Source: Allobosea sp. (GTDB taxonomy: Bacteria; Pseudomonadota; Alphaproteobacteria; Rhizobiales; Beijerinckiaceae). From it: 48,425 nt of DNA. The notes under the pieces were generated by a model that was not told the DNA's origin, did not search any database, and saw nothing but the letters and a program-made list of their open reading frames with translations. The DNA is taken from positions 1 to 48,425 of the forward strand of contig NZ_JAUXYO010000207.1 of the NCBI RefSeq assembly GCF_030694325.1, read 5' to 3'. Positions 9,070 to 19,674 of the stretch are shown here, piece after piece. Within the stretch, counting starts at the first letter, position 1. Each line of letters starts with the position of its first letter. The position numbers and the translations under genes are program-made.

Positions 9070-9696
9070 TCAGCGGGCAAGGACGGAGAGATCGCGCAGG
9101 GCTGCCAGGACGGGCAGGAGTGGCAGGCCGAGAATGGTGAAATGGTCGCCCTCGATGCGCTCGAAGAGCTGCGCGCCCAGGCCCTCGATCTGGTAGCCGC
9201 CGACGCTCGAAAGAACCGCCGCACCGACCGTGTCGAGATAGGATTCGATGAAGGCCGGCGTCAGCGGGCGCATGGTGAGCCGGGCGGTCTGGTGACCTTC
9301 GGCCAGAACCTCTCCGCCCCGCACCAGCGCGAAGGCGCTGTGCAAGTCATGTTCGTGCCCGGCCAGGGCGGCGATCTGCCGCGCCGCGGCCGCACGGTCT
9401 GCCGGCTTGTGAAAGGCCTCGCCCGCGCAGGCCAGCGTCTGGTCGGCTCCGAGCACCAGCCTGTCCGGCTGCAGCGCCGAGACGGCCGAGGCCTTGGCGA
9501 CGGCGAGAGCCCGAGCGATCCGCGCCGGCGCTTCGCCAGCGGCCAGCAAGGGCGCTTCGACCGCCCGCTCGTCGACCGACGGCTTTACCGTCTCCACGGG
9601 AATGCCGGCCGCCGACAACATGTCGCGCCGTGTGATGCTGCCGGAGGCCAGCACCAACGGTCGAGGCGAGAGCCAGAGGCCCGAGCCCGCGATCAT
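9070..9696 (-). CDS. maf: Maf-family nucleoside triphosphate pyrophosphatase
   Basis: [30 protein letters not shown]...[19 protein letters not shown]. Confidence 0.92.
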
Positions 9697-10556
9697 GTCG
9701 CGATGAACTTCATGCGGTGGTCGCGCAGCAGGTCGAGGATCGAGGCCGCCGTCTCCTCGATCGAACGCCGGGTCACGTCGATCACCGGCCAGCCCTTGCG
9801 GGCGCAGAGCCGGCGCGACTGCGCGACCTCGTCGGCGACCGAGGCCGGGTCGACATAGGGCGTCTCGTCGTCGGCGCGCAGCGAGAGCAGCCGGTTCTGA
9901 CGGATCTGGACGATCCGATCAGGGCTGGCGACGAGGCCGACGATCAGTGGCTTGCGGACATGTTCGAGTTCCGCCGGCAGCGGCACGTTCGGCACCAGCG
10001 GGATATTGGCGGTCTTGATGCCGCGATTGGCGAGATAGATCGAGGTCGGCGTCTTCGAGGTTCGGCTGATGCCGACGAGGATGATGTCGGCAGATTCGAG
10101 ATCGCCACCGAGTTGGCCGTCATCATGCAGCAGCGTGTAGTTCATCGCGTCGATGCGGCGGAAATACTCGGCATTGAGAACATGCTGTGCGCCCGGCTTC
10201 GGCGCCGAGGCCTGGCCGAGATAGGACTGGAAGAGCGCCAGCACCGGGTTGAGCACCGACAGGCAGGGGCAACCCAGTTCGCGGCAGAAGTTCTCCAGCC
10301 GCTGCGACCATTCCGGTTCGACCAGGGTGTAAAGCACGACGCCGGGCGAGGTCTCGATCTCCGCCAGGACTCGGGCGAGCTGCGCTTCGGAGCGCACCAG
10401 CGGGTAAACGTGCTCGATCGCGGACACGGTTTCGTATTGCGCCGCGGCGGCGCGGCTGACGGCGATGAGGGTTTCGCCGGTCGCGTCCGACACCAGATGG
10501 AGGTGGAAGTAATTGCGGTGCACGGGGCTCCCCGGGGCCAAGACGCGGTCAGCCAC
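9693..10556 (-). CDS. ppsR: Pyruvate, water dikinase regulatory protein (bifunctional kinase/pyrophosphorylase, DUF299; RP001 homologue)
   Basis: [28 protein letters not shown]...[39 protein letters not shown]. Confidence 0.92.
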
Positions 10557-10655
10557 CTCTAGCCCGGCGGGCCGTCAAAGCAAATCGGCCGGCGAACGTC
10601 GCTGGGATGCGCGGGCGGCGCCGAGGCGGAGGATGATGTGTGGGCTGGGGAGCGC

Positions 10656-10664
10656 TGTGGACAA
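10656..10664 (-). promoter_or_regulatory. DnaA-box-like TTGTCCACA
   Basis: TGTGGACAA on plus strand; 8/9 to TTATCCACA. Confidence 0.5.
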
Positions 10665-10688
10665 GAGAGCGCTGTCGAGGGCGTATCG

Positions 10689-10720
10689 TTAAGGTCTGTA
10701 TAACCCTAACGATCCGTTAA
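10689..10720. promoter_or_regulatory. Two tandem near-consensus CtrA-type sites
   Basis: TTAA-N7-ATAA (10689-10703) and CTAA-N7-TTAA (10706-10720). Confidence 0.5.
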
Positions 10721-10750
10721 CAGGCCAGGGGCTGTGGGGAGAGGGGGGAG

Positions 10751-10766
10751 TGTTTCACGTGAATCA
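10751..10766. promoter_or_regulatory. parS: parS-like site
   Basis: TGTTTCACGTGAATCA, 15/16 to TGTTTCACGTGAAACA. Confidence 0.7.
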
Positions 10767-10803
10767 TTTTGCCGCATCGGCCGGCGCTGCCGATTCGTAC
10801 GGG

Positions 10804-10818
10804 TTAACAAACCGTTAA
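10804..10818. promoter_or_regulatory. CtrA-type full binding site
   Basis: TTAA-CAAACCG-TTAA exact TTAA-N7-TTAA, within GTTAAC-aaacc-GTTAAC. Confidence 0.75.
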
Positions 10819-10865
10819 CGAAGGACCGGTGGACAGGACGCATCGCCTGCCTCACGCTGCCTGCC

Positions 10866-10886
10866 TGTGGACAGGTTGTGGATCGG
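10866..10886 (-). promoter_or_regulatory. Pair of DnaA-box-like sequences
   Basis: TGTGGACAG (10866-10874) and TGTGGATCG (10878-10886); complements CTGTCCACA and CGATCCACA. Confidence 0.5.
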
Positions 10887-10978
10887 ATTGCGTCGGGCTA
10901 TCTGCCCCCATCCAAGAGTCAAAAAAGAAGATTCTCTCTCTAGGAATCTATTTAAGAGAGATGGGGGATGGATCGCCG

Positions 10979-12019
10979 ATGAGCCTCACGACGCATGCCG
11001 AGCCTGCCTTCCTGCGGGCTCTTTCCGGCGAGACCCTGCCGACGCCACCCATCTGGATGATGCGCCAGGCAGGGCGGTATCTGCCCGAGTACCGGGAACT
11101 GCGCGCCAAGGCCGGCAGCTTCCTCGGCCTTTGCTACAATCCGGAATGGGCCGCGGAGGTCACGCTCCAGCCGATCCGGCGGTTCGGTTTCGATGCCGCG
11201 ATCCTGTTCTCCGACATCCTCGTCGTGCCGCAAGCGCTGGGCCAGAAGCTCTGGTTCGTCGAGGGCGAAGGTCCCCGCCTCGAGCCGGTGGCCGACCGCG
11301 AGAGGCTCGCCGAGATCGACAGGGATGCAGGGCTTTCCGTTCTCGATCCGGTCATCGAGACGGTGCGTCGCGTTCGTGCGTCGCTGCCGAAGGAGACGGC
11401 CTTCATCGGGTTCTGTGGCGCGCCCTGGACGGTGGCGACCTATATGGTCGCGGGCCGTGGTACGCCCGACCAGGGGCCGGCGAAGGAACTCTTCACCCGT
11501 GACGAAGCGCTGTTTCGCCTGATGATCGACCGGATCGTCGAGACCTCGATCGATTATCTCTGTGCGCAGATCGAGGCCGGGGTCGATGCCGTGCAGATCT
11601 TCGACAGCTGGGCGGGTTCGCTGGGTGAGGCTGATTTCCAGCGCTGGTGCATCGAGCCGACGCGGCGGATCGTCGATGGCGTGCGATCGCGGCAACCCAA
11701 GGCGAGAATCATCGGCTTCCCGCGTGGGGCGGGGCGACTGATTCCATCATACGTCCGCGGGACGGGCGTCGATGCCGTCGGGCTCGAATCCGAGATCGAT
11801 CGCGAGTTTGCGCGCGACGAGATCCAGTCGCTCGTGCCGGTACAGGGCAATCTCGACCCGCTGGTGCTGCGCGCCGGTGGGCCGGAGCTGGAACGCGAGA
11901 TCGCGGCCGTGATGGAAGCCTTCGGCAAAGGGCCCTTCGTCTTCAATCTCGGGCACGGCATCCTGCCGGACACTCCGATCGCGCATGTCGAGCGGCTGCT
12001 GGCGGCGGTGCGGGGCTGA
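10979..12019 (+). CDS. hemE: Uroporphyrinogen decarboxylase
   Basis: [66 protein letters not shown]; start at internal Met 10979. Confidence 0.96.
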
Positions 12020-17306: not shown

Positions 17307-17936
17307 TTCGGACCGCGCCCGCGCTTTGCGCTTGACGCCTGTTTCACGTGAAACAGAGGAGCGCCTGACATTGCTGGTGGCGGAGCTCGGCCGCTGGCAG
17401 GCTGCCAAGAATCTCGTGTCGAGCACGACGCTCGCCGATGTCTGGATGCGGCATATCGCCGATTCACTCCAGCTGTTCCGGCTCGCGCCCGACGCCCGGT
17501 CCTGGCTCGACCTCGGCTCCGGTGGCGGCTTCCCGGGACTGGTGATCGGCATCTGCCTCGCCGAGGTCGAGGGTGGGCGTATTCATCTGGTCGAAAGCAA
17601 CAGCCGCAAATGCGCCTTTCTGCGCCACGCCGCGCGCCTGACCGGTGCCCCGGTGACCGTGCATCCGGACCGGATCGAGGACGTCATCGGCGACTTCACC
17701 GGGCGTGTCGACGTGGTGACGGCGCGGGCGCTGGCGCCGCTGCCGCAGCTGCTCGACTGGTGCAAAGACCTGTTGAGAACAGGCGCCCTCGGTCTCTTTC
17801 CGAAGGGACAACATCTAGATGCGGAATTGACGGAGTCGTCCAGATATTGGAAGATTCAGGCCACAACGGTTTCCTCCGTGACGGATGGGGCCGCCCGGAT
17901 CCTGATGGTCCGCGCAGCCGAGAAACGGGCCGATCC

Positions 17937-17940
<4 letters not shown>
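17293..17940 (+). CDS. rsmG: 16S rRNA (guanine(527)-N(7))-methyltransferase RsmG (GidB)
   Basis: WMRHIADSLQLFRLAPDARSWLDLGSGGGFPGLVIGICLAE; start at internal Met 17293. Confidence 0.95.
17340..17355. promoter_or_regulatory. parS: parS centromere site (perfect)
   Basis: TGTTTCACGTGAAACA, exact 16-bp parS consensus, inside the 5' part of rsmG. Confidence 0.95.
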
Positions 17941-18767
<827 letters not shown>

Positions 18768-18786: not shown

Positions 18787-19674
18787 ATGATGGCGATGGC
18801 CGAAGAACAGGGGCGCTCGCGCCTGGGCCGGGGTCTGGCAGCGCTGATCGGCGATGTCGGCGAGGAGATCGGCGCGCTGGAGCGGGCTCGCGGCCAGCGT
18901 CGCGTTCCGGTCGAGTTTCTGCGGCCGAGCGCGCGCAATCCGCGTCGGAGTTTCGCGGAGGAGGATCTCGAGGAGCTGACGGCGTCCGTGCGTGAGCGCG
19001 GCATCCTGCAACCGATCATCGTGCGGGCCATCGTCGGTATGCTCGATGCCTATGAGATCATTGCCGGCGAGCGCCGCTGGCGGGCGGCGCAGCGGGCCGG
19101 CCTGCACGACGTGCCGGTCATTCTCGTCGAGGCCGATGATCGCGAGGCGCTCGAAATCGCCATCGTCGAGAACGTGCAGCGCACCGACCTCAACGCGATC
19201 GAGGAAGCGGCCGGCTATGAGCAGCTGATCGCCGAATTCAACTACACCCAGAACGATCTGGCGCGGGTGATCGGCAAGAGCCGCAGCCATGTCGCCAACA
19301 CGTTGCGTCTGTCGAAGCTGCCGCCCTCCGTCCGGCAGATGGTCAGCGACGGCGCGGTCTCGGCAGGCCACGCCCGTGCGCTGCTGTCTGTTTCGGACCC
19401 GGAACTGATGGCGCGCAAGATCGTCGACGAGGGTCTGAGCGTGCGCGACATCGAGCGCATCGTTCAGGAGGAATCGCGCGGCGAAACCAAGAGTATCGCG
19501 ACCAAGCCCAGGGTCGAGAAGGACCCGGACACACGCGCGGTCGAAAAGGCGCTGGAGGAGGCGCTCGGCCTCTCCATCTCGATCAGCCACCGTGCCAATG
19601 GCAGCGGCGAGGTCAGGATCAGCTACAAGACGCTCGAGCAGCTCGACGCGCTCTGCCGCCGCCTGAAGGACTGA
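18787..19674 (+). CDS. parB: Chromosome partitioning protein ParB
   Basis: RSRLGRGLAALIGD...SARNPRRSFAEEDLEELTASVRERGILQPIIVR...YEIIAGERRWRAAQ...RSHVANTLRL. Confidence 0.97.
   Translation: MMAMAEEQGRSRLGRGLAALIGDVGEEIGALERARGQRRVPVEFLRPSARNPRRSFAEEDLEELTASVRERGILQPIIVRAIVGMLDAYEIIAGERRWRAAQRAGLHDVPVILVEADDREALEIAIVENVQRTDLNAIEEAAGYEQLIAEFNYTQNDLARVIGKSRSHVANTLRLSKLPPSVRQMVSDGAVSAGHARALLSVSDPELMARKIVDEGLSVRDIERIVQEESRGETKSIATKPRVEKDPDTRAVEKALEEALGLSISISHRANGSGEVRISYKTLEQLDALCRRLKD

Follow-up and report, generated by a model that had tools for sequence, protein, structure and literature searches.

The chromosomal replication origin of Caulobacter crescentus, Cori, was mapped experimentally and is bounded by the hemE/COG1806 gene pair (PMC1914354). 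It contains five DnaA boxes, five CtrA sites of the TTAAN7TTAA type, one IHF site, and an AT-rich segment; in some genomes, origin elements may be missing (PMC1914354). Bacterial chromosomal parS sites are 16-bp palindromes (TGTTTCACGTGAAACA) located near the parAB operon and the origin, and in Caulobacter they cluster ~8 kb from the origin (PMC5815017). CcrM sites (GANTC) are found near origins and parS in repABC origin-partition regions, where cell-cycle control has been proposed (PMC9040568, PMC11514494). In these secondary replicons, GANTC is located beside parS or in promoters. CcrM itself is present in most Alphaproteobacteria (PMC11514494). For the GANTCs of the Caulobacter parS locus, methylation was measured and was unchanged by constitutive methylases; the text of that paper neither states an overlap of GANTC with the parS word nor claims its conservation (PMC5172544).

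The window analyzed here is one whole contig of 48,425 bp from an assembly of 357 contigs (4.63 Mb, 99.5% complete). It contains coaE, aroE, maf, and ppsR on the minus strand, then an intergenic gap, and then hemE, rho, mnmE, mnmG, rsmG, parA, and parB on the plus strand. A preliminary description of this DNA had proposed a Caulobacter-like origin between ppsR and hemE, and the setting was confirmed, as ppsR (COG1806) and hemE are the flanks of Cori. For comparison within the genus, hemE was searched in 61 genomes, and 30 genus loci (the window's own and 29 others) were oriented and their gaps aligned. The following features were annotated:

9693-10556, minus strand: ppsR, COG1806 kinase-pyrophosphorylase (PF03618, E = 3e-91), left flank of the predicted origin
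10557-10978, no strand: predicted chromosomal replication origin, intergenic, 422 bp (synteny, motifs, skew, conservation)
10656-10664, minus strand: DnaA-type box TGTGGACAA, equal to TTGTCCACA on the minus strand (sequence and genus alignment)
10689-10703, no strand: degenerate CtrA-like site TTAAGGTCTGTATAA (sequence), overlapping the conserved TGTATAACC at 10697-10705
10706-10720, no strand: degenerate CtrA-like site CTAACGATCCGTTAA (sequence)
10751-10766, plus strand: parS variant TGTTTCACGTGAATCA, 15/16, with one mismatch to TGTTTCACGTGAAACA
10761-10765, no strand: GAATC, a GANTC (CcrM) site in the right half of the parS variant, kept in 30/30 genus loci
10804-10818, no strand: perfect CtrA site TTAACAAACCGTTAA, TTAAN7TTAA in 30/30 genus loci
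10866-10874, minus strand: DnaA-type box TGTGGACAG, TGTGGA in 30/30 genus loci
10877-10885, minus strand: DnaA-type box TGTGGATCG, 11 bp from the box at 10866 in 30/30 loci
10914-10957, no strand: AT-rich candidate unwinding element, the lowest-GC 44-mer (29.5% GC) of the whole window
10979-12019, plus strand: hemE (PF01208, E = 5e-113), right flank of the predicted origin
17340-17355, no strand: perfect parS TGTTTCACGTGAAACA, lying in rsmG at 6.6 kb from the parS of the origin gap
17610-18767, plus strand: parA, longest ORF (PF13614, E = 1e-55, domain at residues 123-302)
18787-19674, plus strand: parB (PF02195, PF17762, PF23552; Caulobacter ParB 6t1f, E = 5e-66)

The start of hemE is either ATG 10979 or the in-frame ATG 10961, located 18 bp further upstream; the latter would place the hemE coding sequence immediately next to the AT-rich element. 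The true start of parA is probably further in, after rsmG. No Rfam families were matched in the 48-kb window, and counts of the KOPS-like word GGGNAGGG were too sparse for use.

The words expected of an origin are concentrated in the gap. Thus, TGTGGAY was found three times against 0.07 expected from Markov-1 shuffles, and the constant 11-bp spacing of the boxes at 10866 and 10877 corresponds to about one helical turn. The box at 10656 has the form TGTGGACAA in 22 of the 30 genus loci and the form TGTGGATAA, i.e., perfect TTATCCACA, in four. The earlier statement that no DnaA-like box is perfect therefore holds for the window, in whose gap no TTATCCACA was found. This absence is not a problem, since TGTGGACAA is equal to TTGTCCACA, a DnaA box form of high-GC genomes, and the perfect word occupies the same position in the four loci mentioned. 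One perfect TTAAN7TTAA was found against 0.002 expected. Together with the two degenerate CtrA-like sites, this is fewer than the five sites of Cori, and, unlike in Cori, no IHF consensus was found: neither WATCAN5WTR nor WATCAAN4TTR, both forms of a loose consensus, had a match in the gap. The DnaA-box-like words, the CtrA-type sites, and the A/T-rich stretch named in the preliminary description are thus all present. GANTC occurs five times in the gap against 2.0 expected; this excess is marginal (p = 0.05), and GANTC density by itself was therefore dropped as evidence. Three of these sites are located inside the AT-rich element, at 10916 (kept in 27/30 genus loci), 10930 (30/30), and 10944 (2/30).

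Mean column conservation of the aligned gap across the 30 loci is 68%. The blocks standing out are TGTGGA at 10656, TGTATAACC, TCAACAG, CTGTG, TGTTTCACGTGAATCATTT, the CtrA-box words GTTAA and TTAAC, then CTGTGGA, GGTTGTGGA, and CCAAGAGTCAAA, and, within the AT-rich element, AAGA and TCTCTC. The 18-column block TGTTTCACGTGAATCATT, which spans parS, is invariant in all 30 loci.

Because the genome of the window is a draft of 357 contigs, GC skew was sampled in 20-kb stretches of four congeners with long contigs. Mean skew was -0.007, 0.003, 0.016, and -0.001 on the ppsR side of the gap and 0.036, 0.041, 0.036, and 0.028 on the hemE side. The difference between 22 stretches to the left and 22 to the right (Mann-Whitney p = 2.5e-6) corresponds to an upward step at the gap, placed to tens of kb rather than to the gap itself, since sampling was sparse and the left arms were noisy. 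Within these limits, the skew check proposed for the origin came out in its favor. Synteny, motif density, the AT-rich element, conservation, and skew agree, and 10557-10978 is very probably the DnaA-dependent chromosome origin of this Hyphomicrobiales species. The alternative of an ordinary divergent ppsR/hemE promoter region with regulatory sites, the origin being located elsewhere, draws on the fact that both genes diverge from the gap and that CtrA, CcrM, and TGTGGA words are not exclusive to origins and may also be held by promoters. Nevertheless, the layout of the gap matches Cori, the congener skew step falls at the gap, the lowest-GC 44-mer of the window sits in it, and both parAB and a perfect parS lie less than 9 kb away, which makes a promoter-only region highly improbable. 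The assignment of the origin alone would be routine annotation.

The parS-like palindrome of the preliminary description proved to match the consensus at 15 of 16 positions; the GANTC created by its mismatch had been overlooked. This mismatch is A to T at position 14, changing GTGAAAC to GTGAATC, and so yields GAATC, a CcrM site. With position 14 left open, parS is TGTTTCACGTGAA(A/T/G/C)CA, where A gives canonical parS, T gives GANTC, and G breaks GANTC. In the whole 4.63-Mb assembly, no more than three places are within two mismatches of the parS consensus, and the reversed-pattern control had no match there. In addition to the two sites of the window, the third and only other one is TGATTCACGTGAAACC (L004:997-1012, G000:C345), with two mismatches and also with GANTC (GATTC). 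The word TGATTCACGTGAAACC was also found in the closest long-contig congener (L137:4359, G009:C2), ~72 kb from hemE. The proteins that would read the composite word are both encoded: the HTH motif GKSRSHVANT of the window ParB is identical in Caulobacter ParB, and CcrM was found in the same genome (6pbd, E = 2e-159), so that the GANTC is a predicted CcrM target. In comparison with other chromosomal parS sites, which it resembles in its palindrome and in its nearness to parAB and the origin, this one is located inside the origin gap rather than at a distance as in Caulobacter, is invariant, and carries a GANTC-creating substitution. In comparison with repABC replicons, GANTC is here within parS and on the main chromosome, and in comparison with the Caulobacter report the overlap of both words is invariant in 30/30 loci. 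No report of GANTC within parS was found in the open-access papers searched. The origin is a known type of site; the fixed parS-CcrM composite inside it is the part unreported in the open-access literature searched.

The same variant was found widely in Hyphomicrobiales, whose members include Rhizobium, Brucella, and Agrobacterium. Among 298 genomes of this order, 149 carry the GANTC-forming variant and 20 carry the G/C alternatives. This comparison is by genomes; by sites, T at position 14 was found at least 150 times against 20 for G/C, so that the site ratio is a lower bound, and the site counts are not phylogenetically independent. In parS sites with non-A at position 13, the free N of GANTC, T was found at position 14 in 22 of 25, so that GANTC is kept; counted by genus, this retention is roughly 8 to 3. 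Thus, the two-mismatch word GAGTC was seen 21 times and the one-mismatch word GAGAC once. In 80 named alphaproteobacterial loci, all 20 single-mismatch parS sites altered at half-site position 3 have A there (C 0, G 0), which is the GANTC-forming change. Outside Hyphomicrobiales, no bias was found in the phylum sample (5 T against 8 G/C sites), which rules out T at position 14 as a general drift of ParB sites. Other alphaproteobacterial genomes contain GANTC-parS in only 6 of 285 cases, which rules out a bias arising in any CcrM-bearing lineage. Given that most Alphaproteobacteria have CcrM (PMC11514494), this confinement of the bias to Hyphomicrobiales is a point against a composite site kept for both readings.

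The location of the variant differs between lineages. In Rhizobium, Pararhizobium, Shinella, and R. rhizogenes, TGTTTCACGTGAATCA is found ~1.9 kb upstream of hemE. In one family (G270, G173, G197, G325), GANTC-parS sites form clusters of three, ~39-60 bp apart, as a centromere array. An alphaproteobacterial MAG (L109) has the GANTC-parS TGTTTCACGTGAGTCA in the gap upstream of hemE, at offset -128; this may be an independent instance of an origin that contains parS. In loci of Afipia, Bradyrhizobium, and Nitrobacter (L056, L058-L061, L075, L076) and of Rhodobacterales (L115, L121, L124, L126, L134), the 1.5 kb upstream of hemE yielded no PpsR motif, and origin words were few or absent there. 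For these reasons, hemE and the origin have probably become separated in these lineages.

Two other explanations of the T at position 14 have to be weighed against a site kept for both of its readings. The main rival is a relaxed specificity of ParB: a permissive Lys184, carried by Hyphomicrobiales ParB, would let one half-site drift, A to T would be the best tolerated change, and GANTC would be a by-product. The window ParB has Lys where Caulobacter ParB has A184, and in Caulobacter ParB promiscuous binding becomes possible with a lysine at position 179 or 184 (PMC7383237); among the parS sites of Caulobacter, conservation is confined to the GTGAAA half (PMC5815017). Among named loci (L055-L134), GANTC-parS was found in 15 of 19 with K/R184 and in 0 of 5 with another resolved residue, a correlation confounded with phylogeny. 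Relaxation should, however, also admit G and C at position 14, where T leads by at least 150 to 20, and it predicts GAGAC to be more frequent than GAGTC, the reverse of the 21 to 1 found. Lys184 could thus explain why one half-site varies, but not why T is chosen and GANTC kept. We consider relaxation alone a real possibility, although not the expected outcome. The variant TGTTTCACGTGAATCA could also be bound by another factor instead of ParB, e.g., a Noc-type ParB paralogue; the half-sites of Noc and parS are distinguished by just two positions (PMC7383237), so that shifts of specificity are possible. In several families, however, TGTTTCACGTGAATCA is found a few kb from canonical parS and parAB, and binding by such a factor is improbable.

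Taken as a whole, the account of an oriC at 10557-10978 carrying a ParB nucleation site that doubles as a CcrM site is likely on the basis of the sequence data. That selection has acted on both readings, ParB and CcrM, of the composite parS, here placed inside the origin, seems to us slightly favored. By analogy with Cori, DnaA would load on the 11-bp-spaced pair of boxes and open the AT-rich stretch next to hemE, a process that phosphorylated CtrA would block. ParB may have a loading site inside oriC in addition to the perfect parS at a distance of 6.6 kb. After passage of the fork, the GANTC of parS would remain hemimethylated until late in the cycle, when CcrM acts, and either the methylation state could tune ParB loading or ParB could shield this GANTC from CcrM. 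A wider and more speculative proposal, which we regard as rather doubtful, is that composite parS-CcrM sites arose in Hyphomicrobiales as timers of ParB loading, each passing fork resetting their methylation state, and that in this genus one of them is fixed in oriC. With the composite site fixed inside oriC, replication initiation and centromere assembly would be coupled via one 16-bp element. If this is true, one word inside the origin would link the start of replication, ParB-driven segregation, and CcrM methylation, and would offer a route by which replication reports the duplication of the origin to the segregation machinery.
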